This document shows, one piece after another, positions 14,341 to 43,623 of a stretch of 43,623 nt of DNA. The position numbers and the translations under genes were made by a program. This stretch comes from a virus. Positions within the stretch are counted from its first letter, which is position 1. Each line of letters starts with the position of its first letter. Location: the IMG/VR virus record IMGVR_UViG_3300042309_000819, positions 1 through 43,623 of that record; one strand, written 5' to 3'. The notes beneath the pieces are model-generated. The model searched no databases. It was not told where the DNA came from and worked only from the letters and a program-made list of their open reading frames with translations.

Positions 14341-14342
14341 TT

Positions 14343-16186: not shown

Positions 16187-16187
16187 T

Positions 16188-16829
16188 ATGGAAACTTTAG
16201 TTATTTTAGGATCGGCCGGTTTAGCAAAAGAGTTTTTTTTATATATAAAAAGATCTCAACCTCAGATTAAAAATTTTATTTTTGTTAATGATCTTAATGA
16301 TGGTCAAAATGAAATTGTAATATCCGGAATTTCATATCCTGTTGTTAAAGATTGGAAATTTGATTCAAATTACTTTTTTACGGTTGCGGTGGGAAGTCCT
16401 AAAATAAAAAATCTTTTAGTTCAAAAAGCATTAGATAGTGGGTTAATTCCCGCACCAACTTTTGTTGATATAGACGCCAAAATATTAGATAACACTATTA
16501 AGCTGGGTGTTGGGGGAATTATCTCACCCGGATGTATTTTAACTACAAATATAAGTATCGGAAATTATACGACATTAAATTTAAATACAACAGTAGGTCA
16601 TGACACAGTTATTGGTGATTTTGTGACAACTAACCCCGGTGTTCATATTTCAGGACATTGTAATATTGGAGATATGAATGAATTTGGTACAGGATCAATA
16701 GTAAGAGATAGGTTAACAATTGGTAGTAATAAAATGTTTGGGGCTCAAAGTGCAGTTGTAAAATCTTTATTAGATGATAACCCTGAAATTTTTGTAGGTG
16801 TCCCAATTAAACTTTTAAATAAAAAATAA
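16188..16829 (+). CDS. PglD/NeuD-family sugar O/N-acyltransferase
   Basis: This 213-residue protein has an N-terminal Rossmann-like subdomain (TLVILGSAGLAKEF) that binds the sugar nucleotide, then a left-handed beta-helix of hexapeptide repeats (ISPGCILTTNISIGNYTTL, GHDTVIGDFVT, GVHISGHCNIGD), and ends with VGVPIKLL. The His in TVGHDT is the expected catalytic base of PglD-type enzymes. It would acetylate an amino sugar made by the aminotransferase one base upstream. The start of the fucosyltransferase gene overlaps its stop (TAATG). Confidence 0.9.
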   Translation: METLVILGSAGLAKEFFLYIKRSQPQIKNFIFVNDLNDGQNEIVISGISYPVVKDWKFDSNYFFTVAVGSPKIKNLLVQKALDSGLIPAPTFVDIDAKILDNTIKLGVGGIISPGCILTTNISIGNYTTLNLNTTVGHDTVIGDFVTTNPGVHISGHCNIGDMNEFGTGSIVRDRLTIGSNKMFGAQSAVVKSLLDDNPEIFVGVPIKLLNKK

Positions 16830-17611
16830 TGGGATTTGTAAGTGTTAAACTTATGGGTGGATTGGGAAATTATTTATTTCAAATTGCATCTTCATATTCT
16901 AAATCAATTGACGATAATTTAAATTTTATACTAGATATAAATGACATTACAATTGTACATTCAAATCCAAACAACTATAAAAATAATATTTTTAGGAAAT
17001 TAAATTTCCAACCATTAAATGAATCTTATTCACATTATAAAGAACCATCTTTTAATTATAATGCCATACCAAAATTTAATAATAACACAAAAATGGTTGG
17101 GTATTTTCAAAGTGAGAAATATTTTTTAAATAACCAAGAAAAAATACTTAACATTTTTTCTATTGATGATTTAACCAATAATTTACTCGAAACAAAATAT
17201 GGTGATATATTAAATCACAATACTTGTTCTATACACGTAAGAAGAGGTGATTATGTTAGATTAAATCAATATCATCCACCACAATCAATTGAATATTATA
17301 AAGAATCGATTAAAATTATTGGTGAGGATTCTCATTACTTAATTTTTTCGGATGATATAAATTGGTGTAAAGAAAATTTATCATTTATAAAAAATAAAAC
17401 TTTTATTGAGGGTAATGATGATTATCAGGATTTATATTTAATGTCCATGTGTAAAAACAATATTATTGCAAATTCTTCATTTTCTTGGTGGGGGGCATGG
17501 TTAAATAAAAATGAAGATAAAAAAATCATATCACCAAAATTATGGTTTGGTGAAAAAAATAAACATTTAAACAGTAATGATATATACTGTAAAAACTGGA
17601 TTGTGATATGA
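16829..17611 (+). CDS. Alpha-1,2-fucosyltransferase-like enzyme (GT11)
   Basis: This 260-residue protein matches GT11, which transfers L-fucose from GDP-fucose. It has GGLGNYLFQIA near the N-terminus (10-20), VGYFQSEKYF, the GDP-binding HVRRGDY at 136-142, IFSDDINWCKENL, and NSSFSWWGAWLN near the C-terminus. The order and spacing are those of bacterial GT11 enzymes such as WbsJ/FutC. It sits in an island that also carries gmd and an Fcl-like gene, which could supply GDP-fucose. A related 6-deoxy or 3,6-dideoxy sugar donor is also possible. Confidence 0.92.
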   Translation: MGFVSVKLMGGLGNYLFQIASSYSKSIDDNLNFILDINDITIVHSNPNNYKNNIFRKLNFQPLNESYSHYKEPSFNYNAIPKFNNNTKMVGYFQSEKYFLNNQEKILNIFSIDDLTNNLLETKYGDILNHNTCSIHVRRGDYVRLNQYHPPQSIEYYKESIKIIGEDSHYLIFSDDINWCKENLSFIKNKTFIEGNDDYQDLYLMSMCKNNIIANSSFSWWGAWLNKNEDKKIISPKLWFGEKNKHLNSNDIYCKNWIVI

Positions 17612-18396
17612 AAGAAATTAAACCAACTCTAATAGGAGGTATTCCAAATAAATTAGGAGATTTAGAAAAAAAAGTTATTGTATACGTAGACCAATATGGT
17701 ATTAATTTAGACCATTATAATCATAATGATTACGATTATAAAATTTATTGGCAAATTGAGGGTCAAGGAGTAATACCTAGAAGAGAAAATAATATAAGTT
17801 TCCCAATACAACATAAAAATAAATTTGATCTTATTATTGCAAGTGACCCGACAATATTAAATGAGTGTTCAAACTCAGTTGTTTTCCCATTTGGGGATTG
17901 TTGGATTCCATTAGATGATCAAAAAATACATGATAAAAATAAATTACTTTCAATTATCGCATCTTCAAAAAATGAATTGCCAGGTCATAAATTAAGACAT
18001 TTAACAATAAATAATATTGGTAATAAAATGGACATTTATGGTAGATGTTGTAATTATGTGGAAAATAAGACGGACGCTTTAAAAGATTATATGTTTTCAA
18101 TATGTACAGAAAATTTACAAATTGAAAATTGGTTCACCGAAAAATTAATTGATTGCCTTAGAACGGGAACAATTCCTATATATTGGGGATGTCCAAATAT
18201 TGGAAAGTATTTTAACCTTAATGGTTTTATAATTGTTAATTCAATAGAAGAAATTATTGATGTTGTTAACAATTTATCCGAAGATCAATATTTTTCTAAC
18301 TTAAAATATGTGGAGGAAAATTTTATTAAATCCGCTCAATATGGTAGTAATTTATTTGAAAGAGTTGATAACGAAATAAAAAAAATAGTGAAATGA
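17608..18396 (+). CDS. Alpha-1,3-fucosyltransferase-like enzyme (GT10)
   Basis: This 262-residue protein carries the GT10 signature near residues 165-195: MFSICTENLQIENWFTEKL followed by IDCLRTGTIPIYWGCPNI, equivalent to the GDP-fucose-binding ENS-YTEK-G-P-YWG motif. The N-terminal half is divergent (KIYWQIEGQGVIPRR, then LIIASDPTIL) and shorter than in Helicobacter FutA. There is no membrane anchor. ATGA overlaps join it to both neighbours. It is likely a fucosyl (or colitosyl) transferase acting with the GT11 gene. Confidence 0.85.
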   Translation: MKEIKPTLIGGIPNKLGDLEKKVIVYVDQYGINLDHYNHNDYDYKIYWQIEGQGVIPRRENNISFPIQHKNKFDLIIASDPTILNECSNSVVFPFGDCWIPLDDQKIHDKNKLLSIIASSKNELPGHKLRHLTINNIGNKMDIYGRCCNYVENKTDALKDYMFSICTENLQIENWFTEKLIDCLRTGTIPIYWGCPNIGKYFNLNGFIIVNSIEEIIDVVNNLSEDQYFSNLKYVEENFIKSAQYGSNLFERVDNEIKKIVK

Positions 18397-19304
18397 ATAA
18401 AATAGTAGTAACAGGAGGATCTGGATTAGTTGGTAAATATTTAAAAAAATATCTACCTGAGGCAATTTATTTATCATCAAAGGATTTTGATTTAACTACT
18501 GAAGTGGGAGTTAGAAATATGTACCTAAAGTATAAACCGGATGTCGTTATTCACTTGGCGGCAAAAGTTGGTGGAATTATAGATAACATTAATAAACCCG
18601 CGGAGTATTATACTGAAAATGTAATGATGAATACATTATTAGTTGATTACGCATATAAAATGGATGTAAAAAGATTTATCGGTATTTTAAGTACTTGTAT
18701 TTTTCCTGATGTAATGGAGACATATCCAATGAAAGAGGAAGATTTACATTTAGGTCCGCCAACGTTAACTAATTTTTCATACGGATATGCGAAAAGAAGT
18801 TTAGCGGTTCAAATAGATGCGTACAACAAACAGTATAATACTAAATACCAATACTTAACTCCATGTAATTTATATGGTGTTGGGGATAAAGATCATGAAT
18901 CTAATAGTCATTTCATAACGGCATTGGTAAAGAAAATATTTGACGCCAAACAAAATGGTGAAAAATCAATAACTTTATTTGGAGATGGATCTCCATTAAG
19001 ACAATTTATGTTTGCCGATGATTTCGCCAAAATAATTTATCATGTTATCTCTGATGAAATTTATGATAGTTTTAATGTTGCAGGAAATGAAAATTTAACA
19101 ATTAAAGATATGGCTAATATTGCATTAAATTCATGTGATTCAGAATTTTTAGAAATTAATTGGGATTTATCTAAACCAAATGGACAACATAGAAAAGACG
19201 TATCCATAGAAAAATTAAAATCTTTACTACCTAATTTCAATCCCTTATCATTAACGGAAGGAATAAAAATAGTATATAATAATTATTATGATAAAATTAG
19301 TTAA
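18393..19304 (+). CDS. fcl: GDP-L-fucose synthase / GDP-colitose synthase-like epimerase-reductase
   Basis: This 303-residue short-chain dehydrogenase has the NADP-binding GGSGLVG (about 8-14) and Tyr130-x3-Lys134 (YGYAK). It also has the epimerase residues of GDP-fucose synthase: Ser100 and Cys102 in LSTCIFP, and His173 in ESNSHFI. Fcl converts GDP-4-keto-6-deoxymannose to GDP-L-fucose. The homologous ColC does the same epimerisation/reduction on the 3-deoxy product of ColD to give GDP-L-colitose. Since a ColD-like gene begins inside the 3' end of this gene, both activities are plausible and sequence alone does not separate them. The symbol denotes the family. Confidence 0.88.
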   Translation: MNKIVVTGGSGLVGKYLKKYLPEAIYLSSKDFDLTTEVGVRNMYLKYKPDVVIHLAAKVGGIIDNINKPAEYYTENVMMNTLLVDYAYKMDVKRFIGILSTCIFPDVMETYPMKEEDLHLGPPTLTNFSYGYAKRSLAVQIDAYNKQYNTKYQYLTPCNLYGVGDKDHESNSHFITALVKKIFDAKQNGEKSITLFGDGSPLRQFMFADDFAKIIYHVISDEIYDSFNVAGNENLTIKDMANIALNSCDSEFLEINWDLSKPNGQHRKDVSIEKLKSLLPNFNPLSLTEGIKIVYNNYYDKIS

Positions 19305-20448
19305 TGACACAATAAATAAAGATGATGTAAAATCCCTATGTGAATGGTTATTACAAGATGAAATACCTCGTTTAACTAAAGGTGATTTAACATTGAATCT
19401 AGAATCAAAATGGGCCGAAAAAATTGGTACAAAATATTCTGTTTATGTTAACTCAGGGTCTTCGGCAATACTTTTAACTTTAGCGGCATTACAACACACC
19501 AATCGTCTAAAAAATAATAAAATTATTGTCCCTGGTTTAAGTTGGGCAACCGATGTGAGCTCACCAATGTTATTGGGTATGGAACCAATATTATGTGATT
19601 GTAATTTAGAGGATCTATCTTGTGACTTAACTCATTTAGAAAATTTATTTATTGATTACTCCCCATCATCATTTATTTTGGTTTCACCATTAGGTTTAGT
19701 GCCCGATATGGAAAGAATAATAAATCTTTGTGAGAAGTACGATGTTATATTGTTAGAAGATGTATGTGAGAGCATGGGATCTAAATATGAAAATAAATAT
19801 TTAGGGTCTTTTGGATTTGCATCATTTTTCTCTATGTATTTTGGTCATCATTTAAGTACTATTGAAGGTGGTTTTATAAACACTAACGACACAGATTTTT
19901 ATCATGCATTATTGATGATGAGAAGTCACGGTTGGGATAGAGATTTACCAAAAAGAATCCAAAATAAATTACGAAACGAAAATGGAATTAGTGAATTTGA
20001 TTCACTATATACATTCTATTTACCGGGATTTAATCTAAGATCAACGGATCTACAAGCATTTATTGGGTTAAGAGCGATTGACAAGTTAGATAATTATACT
20101 GAAAAAAGAAATAAAAATTTTCGATTATATAGGTCAACTATAAATGATAACCAATTAAACATTACAGATACCGAGAATAATTTCATTTCAAATTTTGCAT
20201 ATCCAATTGTAAACAAAAATAGGGAAATCATTATAAAGAAATTAATTGATAATGATATTGAAGTTAGACCTTTAATTGCTGGTGATATGTCTAAAAAACC
20301 TATGTGGATTAAAAATTATGGAGAAGTATCATTACCTAATTGTCAATTAATTAATGAGTATGGATTTTACATACCTAACCATCAGGATTTAACTTCTAAA
20401 GATATAAATATTATTTGTGATATTATTAATAATGTACAGATTGTATAA
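19288..20448 (+). CDS. colD: ColD-like GDP-4-keto-6-deoxymannose 3-dehydratase
   Basis: This 386-residue member of the PLP aminotransferase fold has the PLP lysine replaced by histidine: MYFGHHLSTIEGG places His188 where aminotransferases have Lys. That is the hallmark of ColD (catalytic His188, about 388 residues), which removes the C3 hydroxyl of GDP-4-keto-6-deoxymannose using PLP and glutamate. Other PLP contacts are present: NSGSSAILLTLAAL (phosphate site) and LLEDVCESMGS (Asp158, pyridine). The product is the precursor of colitose, a 3,6-dideoxyhexose of O-antigens. Its start overlaps the fcl-like gene by 17 bases. Confusion with the RfbH-type 3-dehydratase is possible, but the GDP-mannose context favours ColD. 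Confidence 0.87.
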   Translation: MIKLVNDTINKDDVKSLCEWLLQDEIPRLTKGDLTLNLESKWAEKIGTKYSVYVNSGSSAILLTLAALQHTNRLKNNKIIVPGLSWATDVSSPMLLGMEPILCDCNLEDLSCDLTHLENLFIDYSPSSFILVSPLGLVPDMERIINLCEKYDVILLEDVCESMGSKYENKYLGSFGFASFFSMYFGHHLSTIEGGFINTNDTDFYHALLMMRSHGWDRDLPKRIQNKLRNENGISEFDSLYTFYLPGFNLRSTDLQAFIGLRAIDKLDNYTEKRNKNFRLYRSTINDNQLNITDTENNFISNFAYPIVNKNREIIIKKLIDNDIEVRPLIAGDMSKKPMWIKNYGEVSLPNCQLINEYGFYIPNHQDLTSKDINIICDIINNVQIV

Positions 20449-21211
20449 ACCCGCCAGATCTAAAGAGGCGTATAGAGGTTTATTTTCTTATTTAACAGAA
20501 TCTGTTTTAAACATGGTAAACTTCATAAAATTAAATGGGGATGATGATATAAAATATTATCATGATTTATTTAACATACCGGGATATGGTAATCAAAATT
20601 TATATGATATCTATTTAACACAAGATGAAAATGATTATAAAATAAATAACCATCTTTATAAAAATATAGAATCATTTGAAAATATTTTAAATATTGATTG
20701 TTATGGTTTTGAAAAATATAATCAGGATCTTAGGTTAATTAGTGAAAAAGTTATTAATAAGTTTTTTATACCTAATAAAACTTTAAATGAATTAATTAGT
20801 AAAAGACACCATGAAATTAATTTTAATACAACAATTGGGGTTCATAGAAGATCAACCGATATAGGTACCCACCATAATATTATAAAAATGCATGATATTT
20901 TTAATGAAATTGAATTTAATGATTTTGATAATATTTTTTTAATGTGCGATAACATATATGATACAAATAAATTTAAACAAAGATATGGAAACAAACTTAT
21001 AACATATGATGAGTTTACTTCCAAAGATATGAATTTACCTTTTTTTAAAATTAATAATTCAGTTGAAGATATAGATAACCATATTAAAGAATTACTATTC
21101 GGTGTTTTTACATTATCAAAAACAAAAAATTTTATATGTACAAAATCTAATATATCTTCTTTCTGTGTTTTGTCCAATTCTAAATTAAACTATAAATTAC
21201 TTAACAAATAA
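20432..21211 (+). CDS. NodZ/FUT8-like fucosyltransferase candidate
   Basis: This 259-residue protein has one informative motif, NTTIGVHRRSTDIGTHHNI, at about 135-153. It resembles the GDP-fucose-binding HxRRTD region of alpha-1,6-fucosyltransferases such as NodZ and FUT8. The downstream strands IFLMCDNIYDTNKFKQRYG and FTLSKTKNFICTKSNIS fit the same GT-B-like layout. I use the ATG at 20432, since the GTG five codons upstream only extends the overlap with colD. It lies between colD and gmd, so a donor made in the island is likely. Family placement is moderate; the acceptor is unknown. Confidence 0.7.
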   Translation: MYRLYKPARSKEAYRGLFSYLTESVLNMVNFIKLNGDDDIKYYHDLFNIPGYGNQNLYDIYLTQDENDYKINNHLYKNIESFENILNIDCYGFEKYNQDLRLISEKVINKFFIPNKTLNELISKRHHEINFNTTIGVHRRSTDIGTHHNIIKMHDIFNEIEFNDFDNIFLMCDNIYDTNKFKQRYGNKLITYDEFTSKDMNLPFFKINNSVEDIDNHIKELLFGVFTLSKTKNFICTKSNISSFCVLSNSKLNYKLLNK

Positions 21212-21212
21212 A

Positions 21213-22184
21213 ATGAAAAAAGCATTAATTACCGGCATAAATGGTCAAGATGGTTCATATTTAGCCGAATTTCTTTTAGATAAAGGTTATGAGGTTCACG
21301 GAACTTTAAAAAGAAATTCAGTGTCTGAAAATCAAACATCTAGATTAGATAATGTATTTGAAAAAATAAAATTTCACTATGCCGACCTAACCGATCTTTC
21401 ATCGTTAATTAGGATTATAAGTGAAATAAACCCAGACGAAATATATAATTTAGCGGCACAATCTCACGTTAGAATATCTTTTGATCAACCAATATATACC
21501 GCAAACGTAACTGGCTTAGGAACATTAAATGTTTTAGAGGCGGTTAAATTAATTAACCCAAAAATAAAAATTTATCAGGCATCATCTTCAGAAATGTTTG
21601 GTAATAATATTGATGAAGACGGTTACCAAAGAGAGTCAACACCAATGAGCCCTGTTTCACCTTACGGATGTGCTAAAGTTTTTAGTTATAATATATCCCG
21701 TAATTATAGAAATTCATATGGGATGTTTATCTCTAACGGAATATTATTCAACCATGAATCACCAAGACGAGGTACAAATTTTGTTACTAACAAAGTTTGC
21801 AAAGAAGCCGTTAAAATTAAATTAGGGTTAAGTAACGAACTTAAGTTGGGTAATTTAGACGCAACAAGAGATTGGGGTCATGCTAAGGATTATGTTGAAG
21901 CAATGTGGATGATTTTACAATTAGATAAGTCGGATGATTTTGTGTGTTCTACAGGTATATCCCACTCGGTTAAAGATCTAGTTGAATACGTTTTTAATAA
22001 ATTAGAATTGGATTGGACAAAATATATTAAACAAGATGAGAAATTTTATAGACCTGAAGAACTTAACGATCTTAAAGGCGACTCAAAAAAATTAAGAGAA
22101 TTCACTAATTGGTCACCAAGATATACATTTGAAACTATGTTGGACGAAATGATAGAATATTGGTTAAATATCTTAAATAAATAA
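21213..22184 (+). CDS. gmd: GDP-mannose 4,6-dehydratase
   Basis: This 323-residue SDR enzyme converts GDP-D-mannose to GDP-4-keto-6-deoxy-D-mannose, the shared precursor of fucose, colitose, rhamnose and perosamine. It has TGINGQDGSYLAEFLL (NADP-binding), LKRNSVSENQTSRLDNV, YNLAAQSHVRISFDQP, the catalytic QASSSEMFG region, YGCAKVF with the Tyr-x3-Lys pair, and NHESPRRGTNFVT for substrate binding. It is slightly shorter than typical Gmd but keeps all signature blocks. It is the last gene of the island, one base after the preceding gene. GDP-mannose would have to come from the host, as no manB/manC is in the window. Confidence 0.95.
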   Translation: MKKALITGINGQDGSYLAEFLLDKGYEVHGTLKRNSVSENQTSRLDNVFEKIKFHYADLTDLSSLIRIISEINPDEIYNLAAQSHVRISFDQPIYTANVTGLGTLNVLEAVKLINPKIKIYQASSSEMFGNNIDEDGYQRESTPMSPVSPYGCAKVFSYNISRNYRNSYGMFISNGILFNHESPRRGTNFVTNKVCKEAVKIKLGLSNELKLGNLDATRDWGHAKDYVEAMWMILQLDKSDDFVCSTGISHSVKDLVEYVFNKLELDWTKYIKQDEKFYRPEELNDLKGDSKKLREFTNWSPRYTFETMLDEMIEYWLNILNK

Positions 22185-22197
22185 TAAATAAAAATTA

Positions 22198-22935
22198 ATG
22201 GCAACAAGAAGAAAAACACCTCAGACAACTGAAGAAACAACAAATCCTTTGATATCAAGAAAGGACTTTATTAATTCAGTTATTAAGAAAAAACAAAAAA
22301 ACAAATTTTTATCTGATCATCAAGAAGAGTATTATAACATATTAAAAAATAATCAGATAACTGTTGCGTCAGGACCTGCGGGTGTTGGAAAAAGTTACAT
22401 TGCAATGAAAGCTGCGGTTGATTTACTTATGGACCCAAATAACTCATATGAGAAGATTATCATTGTAAGACCTGCGGTTGAGGCCGAAGAAAAGTTAGGT
22501 TCTTTACCGGGTAACCTTGAGGAAAAATTAGACCCATACATTTTTCCATCATACTATCTATTAAATAAAATTATTGGTAAAGATGCTAGAGAAAAATTAA
22601 AAGAGGCTGAGGTTATTGAGGTATTTGCGTTAGCATTTATGAGAGGGATGAATATTGATAATTCAATACTAGTATTTGAAGAAGCTCAGAATTCAACACC
22701 AAATCAAATGAAACTTTTGTTAACAAGAATTGGTTTCAACAGTAAATTCTTTATCTCAGGTGACCTTGAACAAACTGATAGATATAAAGACAAAAAACAA
22801 TCAGGTCTTTACGATGCAATCCAAAGATTTAAAGATGTTAGAGATATTGGAGTATATGATTTTAGAGACGCTAAAAACGTAAGAAATCCATTAATTAGTA
22901 AAATCCTTAGTAAGTATGATGAGAATAGGGATTGA
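22198..22935 (+). CDS. phoH: PhoH-like ATPase
   Basis: This 245-residue P-loop protein has Walker A GPAGVGKS at 59-66, IIIVRPAVEAEEKLGSLPG (the PhoH-specific block), Walker B SILVFEEAQN, LLTRIGFNSKFFISGD and the QTDR element. This order is that of PhoH, a predicted RNA-related ATPase very common in marine and freshwater T4-like phages, where its role is unproven. A basic N-terminal leader of about 35 residues precedes the domain. The stop overlaps the next gene. No TATTTAT element or terminator is visible in the 13-base gap before it. Confidence 0.92.
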   Translation: MATRRKTPQTTEETTNPLISRKDFINSVIKKKQKNKFLSDHQEEYYNILKNNQITVASGPAGVGKSYIAMKAAVDLLMDPNNSYEKIIIVRPAVEAEEKLGSLPGNLEEKLDPYIFPSYYLLNKIIGKDAREKLKEAEVIEVFALAFMRGMNIDNSILVFEEAQNSTPNQMKLLLTRIGFNSKFFISGDLEQTDRYKDKKQSGLYDAIQRFKDVRDIGVYDFRDAKNVRNPLISKILSKYDENRD

Positions 22936-24898: not shown

Positions 24899-25705
24899 AT
24901 GAAAAATAAAAACACAATCTCAGTAATTTTACCAATTAAATCAGCGGTGTCTGGTTTCTTTGAGGAATATTTAAATAAAGCAATTGAATCTATTAAAGTA
25001 CAAAAAGAACAATTTGATGAATTAATTATCGTACACACAGATGAAAATTTATTAACTAAAGTTTTAAAAGATTTTGACTTTGGTGACTTAAATGTTAAAT
25101 TAGAATCTTGGACAAAAGAAGCAAATTTTGCAGATCAGATTAATCATGGTGTTAGTTTGGCAACATCTAATTGGATTACTATTTTTGAATTTGATGATGA
25201 ATATGCAAACATTTGGGTTAAAAATGTTAAAAACTATATGGACATCTATCCAAATGTTGGGGCATTTTTACCTATTGTTGTTGATGTTGACGACAAAGGT
25301 GTATTTGTTGGATTCACAAATGAAGCCACTTTTGCGGCTAATATTTCTGAAGAAATGGGGGTATTAACAAACGAAACATTACACACATATCAAAATTTCC
25401 AAATTGCGGGAATGGTAATTAGAAAAGATCTTTTTGTGGAATATGGAATGATTAAAAGTAATTTTAAATTAACATTTGGTTATGAATTTTTATTAAGAAT
25501 GACTCAAAATTCAGTTAAATTTATGACAGTACCAAAAATTGGTTATAAACACAGTAACTTACGTGAAGGATCTATTTTTTGGAATTATAAAAATGGGGAA
25601 GATCGTCTTTCCGAAGATGAAGTTAAGTTTTGGATAGATTCGGCCAAAAAGGAGTATTTCTTTAATACTCAAAGAGAAATAAATTACGAACCCCAAGAAA
25701 TTTAA
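24899..25705 (+). CDS. GT2-like glycosyltransferase
   Basis: This 268-residue protein starts with NTISVILPIKSAVSGFF and has DELIIVHTDENLL, then a GT2-type acceptor half with TSNWITIFEFDDEYAN (the acidic pair at the DxD position), FQIAGMVIRKDLF and LTFGYEFLLRMTQNSV. It is shorter and more divergent than those of the main island. It starts one base after the GT-B gene and ends overlapping the sigma factor start (TAATG). It probably acts with the upstream GT-B enzyme on a shared acceptor. Confidence 0.8.
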   Translation: MKNKNTISVILPIKSAVSGFFEEYLNKAIESIKVQKEQFDELIIVHTDENLLTKVLKDFDFGDLNVKLESWTKEANFADQINHGVSLATSNWITIFEFDDEYANIWVKNVKNYMDIYPNVGAFLPIVVDVDDKGVFVGFTNEATFAANISEEMGVLTNETLHTYQNFQIAGMVIRKDLFVEYGMIKSNFKLTFGYEFLLRMTQNSVKFMTVPKIGYKHSNLREGSIFWNYKNGEDRLSEDEVKFWIDSAKKEYFFNTQREINYEPQEI

Positions 25706-26451
25706 TGTCTGAAAATGAAAATGTATTAGATAATATTGATGGATCGAAAAAGAAGGGTAGAAAACCAAAATCAAATAATTATTTTGATGAAGTTGAGGAA
25801 AATGCGGTTAGAGAATATCTAACCGCAACCACAATGGATGAGAAAAATAGAATATATAACAATTATTTAAGAATACCCTTAGACAAAATGATATCGTCAA
25901 TTATAAGACGATATAAGTTATATAGGAAAGATATGAATTTTGAGGAAATTCATATAGACACACATTCATTTTTAATGACAAAAATCGATAAGTTTAAACC
26001 GGCAAAAGAAAAAAAGGCCTATTCTTATTTTGGTACTATTTGTAAAAATTATTTGATGGGTCAAATAATGAAAGATCAAAAAGAAACCAATAGAAAAATA
26101 TCCTATGAAGATATATCTGCCGATTTACAACATAGTCCTGATATGATATATCATATTGATGACGACACTCTTACAACAGAAGAAATAATTAAAAAGTTTT
26201 TAATAAAACTAAAAGATTCAATGGGCGAGAAAGCAATCACAGAACAGGAAGTTAAATTAGGACAAGCGTTATATGATATATTTGAAAATTATAATGATAT
26301 ATTTTTAGATACAAGTAATAATAAATTTAACAAAAATGTCATCTTGTTTGAATTAAGGGAAATGACAAATTTAAGTACGAAAGAAATAAGAACTTCGATT
26401 AAAAGATATAAGAAAGTTTACTTTCAAATGGTTCAGGAATTGTTAAAATAA
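25705..26451 (+). CDS. Late-transcription sigma factor (T4 gp55-like)
   Basis: This 248-residue protein has a basic leader (SKKKGRKPKSN) and then a sigma-region-2-like core: FEEIHIDTHSFLMTKIDKF, followed by PAKEKKAYSYFGTICKNYL, the segment corresponding to core-polymerase and -10 recognition in gp55. The C-terminal part has LREMTNLSTKEIRTSIKRYKK, which looks like a helix-turn-helix or region-4-like helix pair. gp55 directs host RNA polymerase to late promoters together with the sliding clamp. Its partner site in this genome may be the repeated TATTTATA/T octamer. The next operon has that octamer 10 bases after this gene's stop. Confidence 0.83.
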   Translation: MSENENVLDNIDGSKKKGRKPKSNNYFDEVEENAVREYLTATTMDEKNRIYNNYLRIPLDKMISSIIRRYKLYRKDMNFEEIHIDTHSFLMTKIDKFKPAKEKKAYSYFGTICKNYLMGQIMKDQKETNRKISYEDISADLQHSPDMIYHIDDDTLTTEEIIKKFLIKLKDSMGEKAITEQEVKLGQALYDIFENYNDIFLDTSNNKFNKNVILFELREMTNLSTKEIRTSIKRYKKVYFQMVQELLK

Positions 26452-34312: not shown

Positions 34313-36193
34313 TTATCTCAATTCTCTCAAGTCGAATGTTCTAACTCCATCAACTGTGATACGTCCGTAGAAACGGTTGTTAACCATTTTCTTAGCGTAT
34401 CTTGTCATAATACCTTTGATAGGTGTGAAGTTGAATGGGTTGTACATTGTAGGTGTCAATTGTAGAGGTACATACGGTGCGTAGATGTAACCTGTGTCTA
34501 ACAATGATGTTCCTTTGTGTCCAATCAAAACTTGGTTTGGTGGGAAGTAAGGATCACGGTACACTTGGTAACGTCCTGCTAAAGTACCAACTCTTTCGAT
34601 ACCCATGTTATACTGATCTTGCTCAGGAGATGCGTTAGATACGTGGAAGTATTCTAAATCATCAAAGATTGCTGAAACCTCAGAAGATACAACGATCCAG
34701 TTAGCTCCACCTCTCAATGTAGATTTGTGGATTTGTGCTGACAATTGGTTGATTGCTGTAATCAAAGTTTGGTTCCAATCTTTTTGAGTGTAAGATGTAG
34801 TTTGAGAAATTCTTCTCCATCCGTTGTAGTCCCAACGTAAGTTCCAAGCCGCTCCTTTTCTCAAGTCACGTAAGATCTCACGGTCAATCTCTGCTGCTAC
34901 TTGCTCAGATAACAATGCTGTTAACTCAGCCTCAGCGTCGATGTTATGGAATGCTGCAACGTCTTGAGCTAACTCAGGAGACCATTGTGCTCTTAATTTT
35001 CTTTCGGTTACAGAAACAGTTACTGAATCTAAATCGAAAGAAACCTCTCCAATTTTATCTTCGAATTCCATTTCTTCATATCTTCTGAATACAGCTACGA
35101 AAGAAGTTGCAGAAGTCGCAGAGAAAATAGTAGTACCTGTGTAACCATCTAAAGATGTAGAATCACAATCAGCACATACTGGACAAGATAAATCAACTTC
35201 TAAGTAGATACATCCATCTGCAGAACAGATATTTTTGAATGAACCACCGTTACCATCAGTTGGCCAAGTTGTAGTCACAGTGTTACCGTATTGAACGATA
35301 CCTTTACCGTATTGTTGAGTAACAACTCTAAATAATAGAGGAACTGCAACACCAGCACCTGCACCTACAACATCACAAGGAGTAGTTGAAGAAGAGAATG
35401 TACTTAAATTAGTAAAGATTTTAAGATCAGAAAGGAAAGATTCTGAATCCATTTCGTTTCCATCAGGTCCGATTAATTTACCCGCTCCTGTATCAGCAAA
35501 ACCACACATTTTAATAATTAATTTTCTTTGGTTACCTGCCGCAATTTGAACTCCTCCTGCCGGTACACCACCAGCAACAGTTGCGTCAACTAATGATCCA
35601 CTTGACCATGCTTGAAGAGTTGTAGTTGCAGTAACTGCCGACCAACGACCTTTAGAGTAGTCAAATAATCCTGGAGGATCTAAACCTGCCTCACCACCTT
35701 CGTAGAATAAATCGTAAAGATTTTTTCCGAATGCTCCTGCATTGTCAGGATATCCTGCTCCTGGTCCTGAGTTACCTGTACCACCTGCTGTAGGTCCGTT
35801 AGGTGCTCCGATTGGTGCGTAGTGGTCACCTGATGCGTTTGCAGTACCACCATTATATCCTTGGATACGAGGTACAAAGTAGAATAATTTACCGATCGGT
35901 AAGTTCATTGCTTGTACAGAAACGATATCGTTAGCCAACAATTTAGAGAAAACTCTTCTTACGATAGGGAAAACAACTGTTTCGAACGCTCCGTTAGAAC
36001 CTTCAGATGTTGCTTCGTTAATCAAGAAAGAAGCTTGGTTTTCATACAACTGTGCTACGTTTTCTTTTAGGTGGCCTCTAAGACCTTCAAGGAATCCTAA
36101 TTTATCCCATTTGTTAATAGTATCTTCTTTGATAACTTTAAGGTGTTTTAAACCGATGTTACCAACAAGACCTGATTCTAATAATGCTCCCAT
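34313..36193 (-). CDS. Major capsid protein (T4 gp23-like)
   Basis: The 626-residue precursor forms the head shell. The N-terminal delta region (about 1-60) is helical and ends SFLINE; cleavage after Glu60 (I-N-E, then ATSEG) matches T4 gp23, which is cut after Glu65 in a similar context. The HK97-fold core follows: FETVVFPIVRRVFSKLLAND, then IVSVQAMNLPIGKLFYFVPR, and near the C-terminus QVLIGHKGTSLLDTGYIYAP and FTPIKGIMTRYAKKMV. It is about 100 residues longer than gp23, the extra being a Gly/Thr/Ala-rich insert at about 110-360 with a Cys pair region (CSADGCIYLEVDLSCPVC), perhaps a surface domain. It comes directly after the scaffold gene and ends at a bidirectional terminator. GC content is higher here than in its neighbours, fitting strong expression. 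Confidence 0.95.
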   Translation of the reverse strand: MGALLESGLVGNIGLKHLKVIKEDTINKWDKLGFLEGLRGHLKENVAQLYENQASFLINEATSEGSNGAFETVVFPIVRRVFSKLLANDIVSVQAMNLPIGKLFYFVPRIQGYNGGTANASGDHYAPIGAPNGPTAGGTGNSGPGAGYPDNAGAFGKNLYDLFYEGGEAGLDPPGLFDYSKGRWSAVTATTTLQAWSSGSLVDATVAGGVPAGGVQIAAGNQRKLIIKMCGFADTGAGKLIGPDGNEMDSESFLSDLKIFTNLSTFSSSTTPCDVVGAGAGVAVPLLFRVVTQQYGKGIVQYGNTVTTTWPTDGNGGSFKNICSADGCIYLEVDLSCPVCADCDSTSLDGYTGTTIFSATSATSFVAVFRRYEEMEFEDKIGEVSFDLDSVTVSVTERKLRAQWSPELAQDVAAFHNIDAEAELTALLSEQVAAEIDREILRDLRKGAAWNLRWDYNGWRRISQTTSYTQKDWNQTLITAINQLSAQIHKSTLRGGANWIVVSSEVSAIFDDLEYFHVSNASPEQDQYNMGIERVGTLAGRYQVYRDPYFPPNQVLIGHKGTSLLDTGYIYAPYVPLQLTPTMYNPFNFTPIKGIMTRYAKKMVNNRFYGRITVDGVRTFDLRELR

Positions 36194-38056: not shown

Positions 38057-38794
38057 TTATTTGTCAAGAAATGAACTTAATTTATCCATTAAACTTTTTG
38101 TTTTCTCAATAGATGAGGATTCCATTCCAGTTGCTCTTTCTAAATTCATTTTTTTATCCTCATCTAAATTCTCCTCATATTTTAATCGGTCATTTTTATC
38201 TAAGAATAAATAAGCCCCCGGTGTAGACGGAGAAGATACAAGGTCAAAACAAATTAATTCAAAGTCATCTTGTACTTCATTTTGGTCCCCCACTTTTTTA
38301 AGTGATCCTACCCCACGAGAAGAAATACCTAAAGTAACTCCTTGTCGTAAATAGTTTGCTGCTAAATCCCCCTTTGTGGAAACAATACCACTTTCATGAA
38401 AACCAGGACTTGTAAGTAATTTTATTTTACCTAACAATACATTACCATCCCACCATACTTCTGTGATAATGTGAGAAACACGATCCAAATCAATCAATGA
38501 TGATTCAGGGTGATTTAATTCAGAGAGAGCGGTTCCCTTTTCAATCATCTTTTTGTAGTTTTCCGACTCTCTCTTTAATATTTTCTCAGGATAAACTCTA
38601 CCATTTCTATTAGGGGTATTGTACTTCTGTAATACCGCATAAAATTCAAATGGTTTAGAGTGGTCAAGCATATTTCTTGACTCTTTTAATATATCTAAAT
38701 TACGACCCTCATTAGGATTAATATATCCCGCATCATATTCAATAAGAATACCTTTACCCGAATCTTGGGGTCCTAAAATTTTATAACCGCTCAT
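38057..38794 (-). CDS. Prohead core protease (T4 gp21-like)
   Basis: The 245-residue serine protease matures the prohead. The catalytic His lies in ALSELNHPESS (about 90-100) and the catalytic Ser in TLGISSRGVGSLKK, the two signature motifs of the gp21 family. GRVYPEKILKRESENY at about 65-80 is also typical. Its targets would be (I/L)-x-E sites, seen in the capsid precursor, the scaffold and the proteins at 32231 and 33255. The C-terminal tail (about 205-245) is charged and probably removed by self-cleavage. TATTTATA lies 21 bases upstream, directly after the preceding gene's stop. Confidence 0.93.
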   Translation of the reverse strand: MSGYKILGPQDSGKGILIEYDAGYINPNEGRNLDILKESRNMLDHSKPFEFYAVLQKYNTPNRNGRVYPEKILKRESENYKKMIEKGTALSELNHPESSLIDLDRVSHIITEVWWDGNVLLGKIKLLTSPGFHESGIVSTKGDLAANYLRQGVTLGISSRGVGSLKKVGDQNEVQDDFELICFDLVSSPSTPGAYLFLDKNDRLKYEENLDEDKKMNLERATGMESSSIEKTKSLMDKLSSFLDK

Positions 38795-38807
38795 AGTATT
38801 TTTTTAT

Positions 38808-38815
38808 TATAAATA
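38808..38815 (-). promoter_or_regulatory. Candidate late promoter octamer TATTTATA for the protease gene
   Basis: On the minus strand TATTTATA follows the TAG stop (38816-38818) of the upstream gene without a gap and lies 21 bases before the protease ATG at 38794. Confidence 0.55.
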
Positions 38816-39283
38816 CTAAACTTTTTCGGTTTTTACTTTAATTGGTTTAACATTCCCATTTTTTGTTAGGTAAAATTTGAAATTATCATTCTTATGTAAT
38901 ACGTCATTATATAATCCCTTAACAATTTCCTTTAATTTACGTTTGAGTTTTAAATCTTTGAAATCCACCTCATCAATAAGATAGAGATTAATTTCTAAAT
39001 TCATAAATGATTTCTTTTTTAGTGATAATCCACTTGTTCTTAGATCCATATCCACAATAAACTTATCGTCAAACATTTGTTTATCTATGTGGTTGAATAC
39101 TGAGTGTTTAATTGATCGGTTCATATTTAATACGAGCCTTGTCCAGTTCTCTACTTCTATTTTTGGTTCCGCCCATGTTTGGAGGTTCAAATACAATGAC
39201 TTGAAATTTTTTGAATCTACTGTTCCGTAGGTAATTTTTGAGTTTCTAAATCCACTCAGTTTTGAGGTTTTCCCTTTTTTCAT
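38816..39283 (-). CDS. Hypothetical phage protein
   Basis: This 155-residue basic protein begins MKKGKTSKLSGFRNSKITYG and contains LNLQTWAEPKIEVENWTRLV, FIVDMDLRTSGLSLKKKSF and a mixed strand-helix end with FYLTKNGNVKPIKVKT. The pattern suggests a compact alpha/beta protein. No family is recognised. It lies between the bS21 gene (opposite strand) and the protease, in a position where T4 has small prohead core genes 67 and 68, but composition does not match those. No octamer is found upstream. Confidence 0.7.
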   Translation of the reverse strand: MKKGKTSKLSGFRNSKITYGTVDSKNFKSLYLNLQTWAEPKIEVENWTRLVLNMNRSIKHSVFNHIDKQMFDDKFIVDMDLRTSGLSLKKKSFMNLEINLYLIDEVDFKDLKLKRKLKEIVKGLYNDVLHKNDNFKFYLTKNGNVKPIKVKTEKV

Positions 39284-39326
39284 TTGATATTTCCATAATA
39301 CAATGTTTATTTTATGAAAAAATAGT

Positions 39327-39334
39327 TAATTTTG
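39327..39334 (+). promoter_or_regulatory. Candidate Bacteroidetes -7 element for the bS21 gene
   Basis: TAATTTTG matches TAnnTTTG and lies 48 bases (first base to ATG) before the bS21 start at 39375. No good TTG is seen at -33. The bS21 gene lacks the TATTTATA octamer of its head-gene neighbours, so it may be read by host polymerase early. Confidence 0.4.
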
Positions 39335-39374
39335 TGATATATATCAAATATAAAATAAAATCTTAAAATATATT

Positions 39375-39563
39375 ATGTTAATAGTACACGTAACCAAAAA
39401 TGGGGGGATTGAAAGAGCCCTTAAAGAGCTGAAAAGTAAGGTGATTAAAACAAGACAAAACTCTCACCTAAATGATAGGAAAGAGTTTACTAAAAGGTCT
39501 GTTAAAAATAGAGAAATCCTTAATAAGGCTATTTATCGTCAAAAAATTAAAAGTAACGATTAA
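39375..39563 (+). CDS. rpsU: Phage-encoded ribosomal protein bS21
   Basis: This 62-residue basic protein is a clear small-subunit protein bS21 of the Bacteroidetes kind: MLIVHVTKNGGIERALKELK, then NDRKEFTKRSVKNREILNKA and IYRQKI. Host bS21 sits near the 3' end of 16S rRNA. In Bacteroidetes, bS21 with bS18 and bS6 is reported to mask the anti-Shine-Dalgarno, with a conserved Tyr near position 54; this protein has Tyr54. A phage copy could replace host bS21 on ribosomes to favour phage mRNAs. It is the only plus-strand gene inside the minus-strand head module and its last four bases overlap the convergent gene. No Shine-Dalgarno is seen in its AT-rich leader. Confidence 0.93.
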   Translation: MLIVHVTKNGGIERALKELKSKVIKTRQNSHLNDRKEFTKRSVKNREILNKAIYRQKIKSND

Positions 39564-40276
39564 AGATTATTATTTAATTCTTGTAGTTTTAAATAAGTCA
39601 ACTTATCAAATGATTCAGAACTAACTTTTTCAATTGTTTCATTGATTGCATTTCCTACTTCTTTATCTTGCTCACTCTCTTGGATTTTCTCTAACTTGGA
39701 GATTACACTCTCTTTTAAAGAGTTATATTTTTCTTTTAATTCATCTTCATTAGAAGACAAAATAGTTTTTAATTTTTTCTGATCAGATTCACTTAGATTA
39801 CTTACGTAATTACTAATAGTTTTGTTTGCTATTCCCACCATAGTTTTTAAAGGTACATTAATAACTTCTTTATTCTCTTTCGGGGATTTTGTAATTGTTT
39901 CCAAAATTGTTTTTTTACTTGTAATTTTTTCTTCTAACTTTGTAATACCCGTTGAGAATAAATTATCAACGACATCATATTCATTACCATATTCTGATCC
40001 CTCAACCCAATCATTTAAAGGTTTTAAATCTTTTGGTGAAATTTTGTTTATTGAATTTTCATAAGCGGTAATACTTTGATTAATATATTCGTTTGCAATG
40101 GATTCATTTAGACCTTTATTCGTTGTTAATTCATCATATAGATAAAAAAGTTTAGAAACATTTTTATTCTTTAACACCAAAGAGTTAAATTTAGACATAT
40201 CAGTTTTAATTGTATCATTTTTGTATGATTCAACTAATTTGTTTTCTATTTTTGATTTTAATTTACCGAATTTCAT
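39560..40276 (-). CDS. Hypothetical helical protein of the head module
   Basis: This 238-residue Lys/Glu/Ser-rich protein starts MKFGKLKSKIENKLVESYKN and is predicted by eye to be mostly helical, with coiled-coil-like stretches (LKEKYNSLKESVISKLEKIQ) and a C-terminal SFDKLTYLKLQELNNNL. No family is recognised. It follows the portal gene and could be a core or neck assembly protein, given its position. I place the start at ATG 40276, because the longer TTG version would begin inside the upstream TATTTATA element. Confidence 0.72.
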   Translation of the reverse strand: MKFGKLKSKIENKLVESYKNDTIKTDMSKFNSLVLKNKNVSKLFYLYDELTTNKGLNESIANEYINQSITAYENSINKISPKDLKPLNDWVEGSEYGNEYDVVDNLFSTGITKLEEKITSKKTILETITKSPKENKEVINVPLKTMVGIANKTISNYVSNLSESDQKKLKTILSSNEDELKEKYNSLKESVISKLEKIQESEQDKEVGNAINETIEKVSSESFDKLTYLKLQELNNNL

Positions 40277-40288
40277 AATCTTTTTTAT

Positions 40289-40296
40289 TATAAATA
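40289..40296 (-). promoter_or_regulatory. Candidate late promoter octamer TATTTATA
   Basis: On the minus strand TATTTATA directly follows the TGA stop of the portal gene (40297-40299) and lies 20 bases before the ATG at 40276. Confidence 0.55.
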
Positions 40297-42198
40297 TCAA
40301 TCTCTTAATAATTTGCTCAGTTCATTTTCAATTGAACCTAAAGAATTTCTACCTTTAGATAAATCAATGTACTTATCACCATAAATATCATCACTTTCTA
40401 GTAAGATATTTAAGTTATCATTTTTCTTTCCTTCAGGTAAAGTTTCTTCTTCAGGTGGAGCCCCTGGTGCCGCTGGAGCTTCAGGTGCCCCACCAACTTC
40501 TTCACCCCCTAATGGTGGTAATGGAGGTTCAGGTGAAGTTTCTCCCCCACCTCCGAAGTCAGGTAATGATCCTCCACCTCCGAATGATCCTCCACCACCA
40601 CCTGATGGAGGTGCTCCTCCTGCTGGTGGATTTTCTGTCGAACCTGATTTAGATTTATATAATCTATCCACAACATCAAACATACCTGTATGTGTAATAA
40701 CAGTTGCGGTATTTGCTAATTCAGCGGCAACCGCTCTTTCTAATCTTTGTTGTTGTGTGTCTAATTTAATATCCTCATCTGAGAAACCAAAAATATGTTT
40801 CTTAGCCCAAGTTGCCGAAGTTGGGGCCAAACTATTAGGTATTTCTGACACTAAATCTTTATATAATAATACTTTTTCTTTCCAAACATCAATCATTAAT
40901 AAATCAGCTTGTTTCGAAGGATTGGTTAACCCTAATGTAAAGTTTTGTAGATCATCCTCAAAACCTAAAATAAATAAGTGAATGATTGCAATTTTATTCA
41001 TTTCTGCAATCATTGCTTTTTGTATTTTATTAATAGTTCTTGCAAAACGAATATCTTGTAATGATAAGTTCTTACCATCACCAACCACTTCCTCAAACCC
41101 TAAGTATGCTTTTGGTACACGTAATGCGGTCACTAATTTCTTTTGGATGTATTCAATATCCGCTATTTCAGATAAGTTCTGAGCTCCTGGTAATGTCTCA
41201 ATCGGCATTGTTTGTGTAACATCACGTACAGGAACAAAATAATCCTGATCCACAGCCATTTGGTTAAATCTCATATCCACGTTTCCTGTTTTATTATCAA
41301 CGATTTGATCACGCTTAAATTTGTTTGCAACACGTTGTACGTAAGGTTCAACATCTTTATCATCCATATTACCAACAAACACTTTAAACACTCTTCTTTC
41401 AGGTGCTCTTGATGTCCTATAGATTAACATCGCATCTTCCGATAATAATAATTGTTTCCAAATTCTTCTTGCTTTCTCCAACATGGAAGTTCCGTAAGGT
41501 AGTTTTCTATCATCACCAAGTAATCTAAAGTGAGCAACCTCCCAACTATTAAATTCCATGTCTTTTACTTTCCATTTGAATCTTAACCCTTTTTCTTTTG
41601 GGTCAACTTCGGCATTTACTGATTTTGCTGCCATTCCTCTTTCTAATCGTTCAATCTCAATGTTTGGTAATTGCATACAACCAACAATACCCTTTTCGGG
41701 GTCTAATTTTAGATACACAAAATTGTCACCATATTTACAGGTATTTCTTGTCCACATCTGTAAATTGGTATTAACATCCAATACATTATTAAATAAATCA
41801 GTTAAAATACCTTTTACCCTTTTTGATTCGGAATATATTTGTAAAATAAAACCATCTTGATTTGGAGTTGTTGATTCTTCAGCATATATATCTAATGCGG
41901 TTGATATCTCAGGTGTAAATTCCATTGATTCATAATCATAAAATGCCGCCAATCGTGTTGGTTCATAGTAAATTGCTTGAGTATAAAGATTGTTTTCAAT
42001 TTTTGCCCATTGACCCGATAAATACATGGATTGTTGAGCCTGTAATTTTTCCTTTTCATACTCTTGTTTATTTGTAGTTTTAAGTAACTCTTTTTTATCT
42101 AATGAGTATGTGGGTAAATCTTGACCCAATAAGGAGTTCGGTCCAAATGTTTTGGATAACCTTTGCCAAATTGTTAGATTTTGATTATTATTTTCCAT
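40297..42198 (-). CDS. Portal vertex protein (T4 gp20-like)
   Basis: The 633-residue portal forms the dodecameric DNA gate at the head vertex. Signature segments of gp20 are present: YDYESMEFTPEISTALDIYA, LLGDDRKLPYGTSMLEKARR, AMLIYRTSRAPERRVFKVFV, then YFVPVRDVTQTMPIETLPGA and LGFEEVVGDGKNLSLQDIRF. After about residue 530 there is a Gly/Pro-rich low-complexity tail (GGGGGSFGGGGSLPDFGGGG, then proline-rich acidic repeats) and a conserved-looking end (DIYGDKYIDLSKGRNSLGSI). The length exceeds T4 gp20 (524) mainly through this tail. TATTTATT lies 28 bases before the start. Confidence 0.95.
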   Translation of the reverse strand: MENNNQNLTIWQRLSKTFGPNSLLGQDLPTYSLDKKELLKTTNKQEYEKEKLQAQQSMYLSGQWAKIENNLYTQAIYYEPTRLAAFYDYESMEFTPEISTALDIYAEESTTPNQDGFILQIYSESKRVKGILTDLFNNVLDVNTNLQMWTRNTCKYGDNFVYLKLDPEKGIVGCMQLPNIEIERLERGMAAKSVNAEVDPKEKGLRFKWKVKDMEFNSWEVAHFRLLGDDRKLPYGTSMLEKARRIWKQLLLSEDAMLIYRTSRAPERRVFKVFVGNMDDKDVEPYVQRVANKFKRDQIVDNKTGNVDMRFNQMAVDQDYFVPVRDVTQTMPIETLPGAQNLSEIADIEYIQKKLVTALRVPKAYLGFEEVVGDGKNLSLQDIRFARTINKIQKAMIAEMNKIAIIHLFILGFEDDLQNFTLGLTNPSKQADLLMIDVWKEKVLLYKDLVSEIPNSLAPTSATWAKKHIFGFSDEDIKLDTQQQRLERAVAAELANTATVITHTGMFDVVDRLYKSKSGSTENPPAGGAPPSGGGGGSFGGGGSLPDFGGGGETSPEPPLPPLGGEEVGGAPEAPAAPGAPPEEETLPEGKKNDNLNILLESDDIYGDKYIDLSKGRNSLGSIENELSKLLRD

Positions 42199-42237: not shown

Positions 42238-43623
42238 CTATTTAGTATTCGTAGGGGTTACAGTTGGAGTAGGAGTTATTGTTGTTGTGTTAGTATTCGT
42301 TGGAGTATTTGTTGGTGTTTCAGTGTTAGTTGGTGTTGGGGTTGGAGTTATATTAGAAATCTCACAATCATTACATCCACCATATCCAAATGATGCGGTA
42401 AACGCATCGTCTATCGGAGCATTTATCTTACCAATGACTGAATAACATCCACTTGGTGTTGCTCCTGTGAATGTGTAATAGTTTACATCTCCAGGAACTA
42501 TAAATCCTGGTCCTAAATCAACAACTAAAACATTTAGATTAGTACATCCTGAAATACTGTATGTAGTTATTGAACTCAAATTAGTTGAAGTTGGTGTTTG
42601 AGTTAATGTTGGCGTAACTGATGGAGTTTGAGTATTAGTTGGTGTTACACTCGCAGTTGGAGTATTAGTTGGTGTTTCTGTCGGAGTCTCAGTCGGTGTT
42701 GGTGTTGGAGTCTCAGTTGGTGTTTCTGTCACCGATGGAGTTCCTGTTGGAGTTTCAGTTACTGTAGGTGTTGGAGTATTAGTAGGTGTTTCACTAATTG
42801 TCGGTGTAGGTGTTTCAGTTACCGATGGAGTTCCTGTTGGAGTTTCAGTTACTGTAGGTGTTGGAGTATTAGTAGGTGTTTCACTAATTGTCGGTGTAGG
42901 TGTTTCAGTTACCGATGGAGTTCCTGTTGGAGTTTCAGTTACTGTAGGTGTTGGAGTATTAGTAGGTGTTTCACTAATTGTTGGCGTTGGAGTATTAGTC
43001 GGAGTTTCAGTAACAGTAGGTGTAACCGTATTAGTTGGTGTTATTGTAGGTGTAACAGTATTTGTTGGTGTTACACTCGGTGTTGGTGGTGTGACACTAA
43101 ATCTTGTTAATAATGCGTTGTAATCATTGGTGATTTCTTGTTGTGATAATGCTCGGTTATATATAAATCCACACGCGATTTGACCATCCCAATAATAAAC
43201 ATCTTCACTGGCCTGTCCCATATAAAATAACGCATTTGTGTAAGTTATAAGTGACATGGATTGTGTAAGTATATCAACACCATTTCTATATAATTTAACT
43301 AAACCACCACCATCTGCCGCGTATGTCGCAACAATATTAACCCATTCGGTTGTACCAGTCTCAACAACATTTGAATAATAGGTTCTACCACCCACATTAC
43401 CATAAACACCCCAACCATTTCCACCTTGTGCACGATAAGCGATACTATCAAATATAGTTCCACCAGAATCTGATACACCGAAGACACCTTCTAATGTAGT
43501 TCCAGTATTACCTAATTTACACCACACACTTAAAGTTCTTAATTCAATGTTTGGTGATATAATTTGTGTTTGAATGTGTTGGTCAATACCATTAAATGTG
43601 AATTCACCACTATAATTGTTAGT
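42238..43623 (-). CDS. LamG-like adhesin with Thr-Pro repeats (N-terminus beyond window)
   Basis: The reading frame stays open to the right edge, so the true start lies outside; the 462 codons here are the C-terminal part. A LamG/concanavalin jelly roll comes first: [47 protein letters not shown] and [21 protein letters not shown] long Thr-Pro repeat stalk follows (about 140 residues), then a small globular domain with [19 protein letters not shown] and [16 protein letters not shown], ending with another Thr-Pro tail. A lectin head on a repeat stalk fits a glycan-binding virion fibre. It is encoded directly upstream of the portal gene. An internal GTG at 43527 could be mistaken for a start but would cut the LamG domain. 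Confidence 0.82.
42737..42981 (-). repeat. 90-base in-frame tandem repeat in adhesin stalk
   Basis: Units begin at 42737, 42827 and 42917; the first two are full length and look identical, the third is cut at about 42981. Each 90 bases encodes 30 residues of the form [19 protein letters not shown] and so on. Near-identity at DNA level means recent duplication or active homogenisation. Looser Thr-Pro repeats flank the block on both sides. Confidence 0.88.

Follow-up and report, generated by a model that had tools for sequence, protein, structure and literature searches.

A Shine-Dalgarno-free bS21 gene in the head module of a phage and its possible place in host bS21 control

Why phages carry a gene for the ribosomal protein bS21 is an open question. 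We analyzed one such gene in a virus record of 43,623 bases (IMG/VR record IMGVR_UViG_3300042309_000819; the window, which is the whole record), the virus probably infecting Bacteroidetes bacteria. Chen et al. (2022; PMC9723584) described bS21-carrying phages of clades a-e with predicted Bacteroidetes hosts, in which bS21 lies between two hypothetical families and opposite the portal, prohead protease and major capsid protein (MCP) genes. They reported an aromatic residue at position 54, Tyr in 54 of 61 cases, together with a diverged N-terminal helix, and proposed that phage bS21 replaces host bS21. The core finding (layout, Tyr54, hosts and the ribosome-hijack idea) is therefore already published, and with it the main points of the initial annotation of the window; the bS21 swap that the annotation suggested is a reasonable hypothesis and the same as the published one. 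What is new here is the Shine-Dalgarno (SD) contrast between phage and host genes, the conserved boxes without an octamer, the problem of antisense read-through and the fixed N-terminal changes. In the sections of Chen et al. examined, we found no mention of SD absence, conserved divergent boxes, octamer contrast or antisense read-through.

The bS21 protein and its locus

The bS21 gene (39375..39563, plus strand) begins with ATG and encodes 62 amino acids. Its product matched Pfam PF01165 (Ribosomal_S21) with 32.3 bits (E 8.3e-8), above the gathering score of 27, and the same family was matched at E<=0.01 by 40 of the 40 distinct group members scanned, the window included. The top PDB sequence matches were the bS21 chains 9i5v (residues 1-58) and 7jil (residues 1-60; the F. 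johnsoniae ribosome, according to a figure legend in PMC9723584), which cover nearly the whole protein; a third match, 7qv1, was weak (E 0.67). With NCBIfam TIGR00030, a strict naming model and not a family definition, the window protein scored 19.0 bits, below the cut-off of 28.95, and two other phage members scored 12.9 and 22.1, compared to 54.7 for F. johnsoniae bS21 and 61.8 for the 9i5v chain; the low score marks the window protein as diverged. Judged by these matches, the ORF is a real but diverged bS21. Residue 54 is a Tyr that aligns with F. johnsoniae Tyr54, which places the protein in the Bacteroidia type, and Tyr was present in 46 of 47 distinct phage bS21 proteins, with Phe in the remaining one. 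This is the residue that stacks on A1534 of the 16S tail in F. johnsoniae.

The genes around bS21 run on the minus strand. Pfam and PHROG matches identified a T4-type portal protein (gp20 type; 40297..42198; PF07230, phrog_213), prohead protease (gp21 type; 38057..38794; PF03420, phrog_207) and MCP (gp23 type; 34313..36193; PF07068, phrog_138), and a 481-aa gene occupies the scaffold position. On one side bS21 converges with hyp246 (39560..40276, read from an ATG taken as start at 40276 down to 39560), the 3' end of which overlaps that of bS21 by 4 nt; on the other it diverges from CN155 (38816..39283, minus strand). The window thus has the opposite-strand bS21 of the Chen phages, with their Tyr54 or aromatic residue and two flanking hypothetical genes, and the annotation's description of a 62-residue Bacteroidetes-type bS21 with Tyr54, placed on the opposite strand within the head module, holds.

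We compared this layout across relatives, leaving out one locus whose bS21 is cut by the contig end. A search of viral contigs with the bS21 protein, from which the best 80 of 239 relatives were kept, gave 79 relatives for comparison with the window. bS21 was on the plus strand, CN155 divergent and hyp246 convergent in 80 of 80 loci, and the protease (79 loci), portal (75) and MCP (52) genes were on the minus strand in all cases found. Retrieval by CN155 gave 80 loci with bS21 adjoining in 79, the exception being a contig that ends 68 bp away, and a further search found CN155 and a conserved box in 75 of the 75 loci examined (one locus at a contig edge left out). With the protease of a distant member as query, the best 80 matches included 2 loci already in the set and 78 new ones, 70 of which extended over 1500 nt beyond the protease on its upstream side; all 70 carried bS21 and CN155, and no relative with an empty site was found among the best 80 protease matches. 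Two outgroup phages without bS21 are reported by Chen et al. (PMC9723584). The searches share contigs, which makes them not independent, and they reach only the nearest relatives. The layout is the same in all related IMG/VR loci that have enough sequence.

All 47 distinct complete versions of CN155 are 155 aa long, and wherever a locus has enough sequence the gene is paired with bS21. A PDB profile search gave no match at E<=1, and Pfam and PHROG gave scattered weak matches, the most shared being phrog_21844 (10 of 37 members, best E 1.7e-4). The AlphaFold2 model (mean pLDDT 83.5) gave nothing at E<=0.001 with Foldseek against the PDB, and its best VIA-align Z score, 7.1, lies in the range the tool calls common. 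The one significant viral structural match was A0A8S5L9A5 (E 5e-10), which is uncharacterized. The CN155 profile matched none of 119 genomes of the order of a Flavobacterium, in a search run without a positive control. CN155 may be a head protein or a partner of bS21.

Among named phages, the head-module DNA had no megablast match and CN155 no tblastn match at E<=1, and the protease matched 2433 records, all below 60% identity (44% the best among the matches listed). The bS21 proteins of huge phages (LR745206, LR756504, LR756502 and LR756501) are 43.5-50% identical to that of the window and keep KAIY, but unlike the window their loci have no CN155 or conserved box within 4-kb flanks. Elsewhere in the window, judged from translation alone, a long gene run at 12333-22184 resembles sugar-transfer, aminotransferase and nucleotide-sugar enzymes; it is followed at 22198-22935 by a PhoH-like ATPase whose score lies under the naming cut-off. 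A repetitive threonine-proline-rich protein, also read from translation, adjoins the portal gene at 42238-43527.

We set the 47 distinct phage proteins against 49 host proteins of Flavobacterium type and 18 of the wider Tyr54 type. Phage-specific changes were found at positions 18 (R/K to E), 21 (R/K to S), 23 (F to V/I), 24 (to I), 28 (to Q), 29 (to N), 30 (to S/T/A), 33 (R to N) and 41 (P to K/R, with K also in 2 hosts), and in the loop at 8-11; by alignment, fixed changes mark the N-terminal half of the phage protein. Chen et al. (PMC9723584) single out Arg21, Phe23, Asp25 and Thr28. The initial annotation had made its ribosomal reading depend on the rRNA-contact residues being retained, and for the candidate residues alignment gives a mixed answer: Tyr54 is kept, as are K17, K20, K22, K40, S42 and R46 in all 47 proteins, whereas positions 18, 21, 30 and 33, basic or usually basic in hosts, have lost that character across the phage group. 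With these losses, binding could be altered. bS21 is under purifying selection, with a median dN/dS of 0.11 over 90 pairs (one pair at 1.18) drawn from 23 distinct 62-aa versions only; CN155 had a median of 0.13 over 446 pairs, with values up to 0.37. In one Bacteroidota genome we observed a cellular bS21 with a phage-like KKSV, no Gly at 27 and no SD, possibly a relative of the source of the phage gene.

Leaders and the divergent control region

We measured SD strength as the duplex energy of the leader and its contiguous pairing to the 16S tail. The host set comprised the best 80 of 547 rpsU loci, chosen by nearness to F. johnsoniae bS21 and encoding 49 distinct proteins at 88-100% identity; the mean was -17.0 kcal/mol, and all 80 had 6 or more contiguous matches. 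The phage bS21 leaders lacked an SD in 80 of 80 loci (28 distinct 35-nt leaders), with a mean of +1.7 kcal/mol and at most 3 contiguous matches. A wider host sample was drawn from 118 genomes as 70 loci (the 30 best-scoring and 40 chosen down the list), 4 of which had no usable start and were dropped; 42 of 66 leaders were at -8 or below, compared to 7.3% of shuffles, and 24 of 66 were weaker than -8. A strong rpsU SD is thus found in many Bacteroidota, not all. Among other genes of the window, 39 picked by hand had a mean of -0.37 kcal/mol, against -0.62 for shuffled leaders, in agreement with the annotation's remark that the genome is without SD leaders. SD absence is the default in the phage, and no special selection is needed to explain an SD-free bS21. 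The bS21 gene of a 735-kb huge phage (LR756501.1), which encodes a bS21 of another kind, has a strong SD, with an AGGAGG leader at -12.1.

In F. johnsoniae, rpsU has an extended SD and is autoregulated (McNutt et al. 2023, PMC9976891). According to the same paper, rpsU is translated better on ribosomes that lack bS21 or its C-terminal part, which gives rise to the autoregulation, and an effect of the Y54A substitution is described. The phage protein shares with F. johnsoniae bS21 its family, Tyr54 and the place at the 16S 3' tail; it differs in the N-terminal half at the fixed positions, and its gene in having no SD. Being without an SD, phage bS21 should escape the SD-based autoregulation of the host, an escape that would not matter in some hosts, given the weaker leaders of the wider sample.

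The region between CN155 and bS21, 91 bp in the window, was examined in 52 distinct intergenic sequences from 159 loci (157 complete CN155 and 156 complete bS21 ORFs; one locus left out of the motif counts). Three elements stand on the bS21 strand of the window: a conserved box GTTTATTTT (39305..39313), found as GTTTATTT in 52 of 52 regions; TAATTTTG (39327..39334), a match to the Bacteroidetes -7 element TAnnTTTG (Baez et al. 2019, PMC6847099); and a second conserved box TATATATCAA (39338..39347), exact in 48 of 52 and present as TATnTATCAA in 52 of 52. The two boxes are 33 bp apart in 45 of 52 regions. The bS21 strand carried TAnnTTTG in 38 of 52 regions (missing in 14) and the CN155 strand in 22; when only the 70 nt up to the bS21 start were counted, 37 of 51 had it, compared to 5.2% of shuffles. 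Pairwise identity was 99.2% in the two boxes, 77.5% in the -7 box, 60.4% in the rest of the intergenic region and 50.6% at bS21 fourfold sites. On the -7 numbering of PMC6847099, transcription is predicted to start at 39339, inside the second box, giving a 36-nt leader without an SD. At 39294-39296 we also observed a CAT, an ATG on the CN155 strand 13 nt before the start and in another frame, at the same position in 50 of 52 regions.

Searches for this arrangement found GTTTATTTT-N13-TAnnTTTG 14 times in 13 records, 11 times at bS21 sites and, in three records, at one other site that is related; it was absent from two records, and its sole match in a 304-kb record was the bS21 site. Among the matches listed, exact TTTGnnnTATATATCAA occurred once in 10 of 12 records and not in 2, and with 2 mismatches its counts approached those of the controls in several records. 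The exact form of the conserved region is not widespread as a promoter class in those records. The host-type TTTG-N17-21-TAnnTTTG was found 164 times in 13 records, against 86 in the reversed control, counts that are not independent as two record pairs share sites, and a sigma-70 scan found 19 where 15.3 were expected. bS21 and its divergent partner CN155 share the region with the two boxes, a putative control region that has a host-like -7 box in most versions.

Late octamer and antisense transcription

In the 70 nt upstream of each gene, the octamer TATTTATA/TATTTATT preceded hyp246 in all 43 distinct regions, the protease in 40 of 40, the 481-aa gene in 33 of 36 and hyp252 in 5 of 5. In the window, TATTTATA stands at 40289..40296 before hyp246 and at 38808..38815 before the protease, both on the minus strand. 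We infer that the octamer is a late promoter from its resemblance to T4 late promoters. A candidate reader is a possible late sigma factor (25705..26451, plus strand), which matched phrog_234 (late sigma transcription factor) weakly (E 0.0051) and had no Pfam match. As the annotation had noted, bS21 is without the octamer, which occurred within 70 nt of its start in 0 of 51 distinct upstream regions (shuffles 13.5%; 0.9-13.5% across genes). It was also absent before CN155 (0 of 44) and the 71-aa gene (0 of 40), and preceded MCP in 11 of 36 and portal in 11 of 38.

The annotation further suggested that bS21 is timed differently from its neighbors. In favor of this, bS21 has its own conserved region, often with a sigma-A-like -7 box, and the sequence points to a control separate from that of the late-octamer genes; against it, Chen et al. 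(PMC9723584) place bS21 among the late-expressed genes. In the proposal of Chen et al., bS21 is made late with the head proteins and directs ribosomes towards the late mRNAs of the phage, an explanation we consider somewhat unlikely. The constant position of bS21 in the head module agrees with it, as do metatranscriptomes with high bS21 and MCP reads (PMC9723584); the missing octamer speaks against it, with the qualification that MCP is also usually without one.

The published counts may also be read differently. The overlap of bS21 and hyp246 at their 3' ends is 4 nt in 151 of 156 loci and 6 nt in 5, and a scan of window positions 38683 to 40722 for terminator-like sites found none. Unless it ends earlier, transcription begun at the hyp246 octamer would be expected to cross bS21 in antisense and continue towards the octamer-less CN155. 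In the mapping method described by Chen et al. (PMC9723584), bases are counted per gene with no strand stated, and the bS21 reads are close to those of an opposite-strand neighbor; Chen et al. read the coverage as not one operon. Since bS21 lies antisense downstream of an octamer gene, read-through could mimic its expression in strandless counts; the published late expression may include such read-through, and the late-expression inference is not secure. This does not show that bS21 is expressed early.

Possible roles of phage bS21

The reading we favor, tentatively, is that an SD-free phage bS21 with Tyr54 retained takes the place of host bS21 on the 30S subunit and holds host rpsU down. The SD-free mRNA would be read by ordinary, bS21-replete host ribosomes, outside SD-based autoregulation. 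With Tyr54 kept, the anti-SD would stay hidden in ribosomes carrying the phage protein. The strong SD of host rpsU is read better by ribosomes without bS21, and its translation would therefore not be raised. Replacement would be one-way, phage bS21 accumulating while synthesis of host bS21 stays low, and the SD-less phage genes would remain translatable on the resulting ribosomes. The altered N-terminal half may add a preference for phage mRNA, and bS21 expression may begin before the late genes and later be opposed by antisense head transcripts. The full sequence of events, a takeover that both escapes and quiets autoregulation, driven from the divergent control region before the late phase and opposed by antisense transcripts afterwards, is doubtful as a whole. 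In the literature searched, we found no statement of this one-way model. McNutt et al. (PMC9976891) speculated that autoregulation would protect the host; under our model the opposite would hold in the presence of phage bS21.

Replacement is consistent with the bS21 identity of the protein, Tyr54, the SD contrast, the conserved boxes and the low median dN/dS, and a phage bS21 can enter ribosomes, as Mizuno et al. (2019, PMC6375957) reported for the bS21 of Pelagibacter phage HTVC008M in E. coli. That protein is likewise phage-encoded but, unlike the window's, close to the bS21 of Pelagibacter, an alphaproteobacterium. Against the model, by analogy and from our own data, stand the activity of only about 5% of the pelagiphage-bS21 ribosomes, the weak host SDs and the lost basic residues, as well as the late expression of Chen et al., SD absence as the phage default, the regions without TAnnTTTG, the strong SD of the 735-kb phage and the single dN/dS pair above 1.

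It is unlikely that the phage protein simply tops up limiting host bS21, the annotation's other suggestion, or host bS21 that has been destroyed, as supply or counter-defense with mRNA choice unchanged. Tyr54 and part of the basic core are conserved, bS21 is under purifying selection, and a gene without an SD would be expressed whatever the state of host bS21, all of which would suit a substitute; the fixed group-specific changes at 18, 21, 23, 24, 28-30 and 33 exceed what a plain substitute needs. Host shut-off, in which phage bS21 enters ribosomes and impairs host translation, is improbable: it would account for the low activity of the E. coli ribosomes and the usually basic residues lost from the N-terminal half, but the authors suggest a host mismatch for the E. 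coli result (PMC6375957), and a general block would hurt the phage, whose SD-less genes use the same ribosomes. A role outside the ribosome or in the virion, linked to head assembly and involving CN155, packaging being a possibility named by Chen et al. (PMC9723584) and suggested by the head-module position and the constant pairing, is still more improbable given the gene's own strand and upstream region and the conservation of Tyr54 and of bS21 family membership.

Through the SD contrast, phage bS21 is connected with a control circuit already known for bS21, and replacement with low host rpsU has a clear and cheap test in a laboratory Flavobacterium; the antisense position of bS21 relative to the head genes limits the reach of the published late-expression evidence. 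If the replacement model is true, the phage would have a simple route to take over the bS21 position on the ribosomes of its host.
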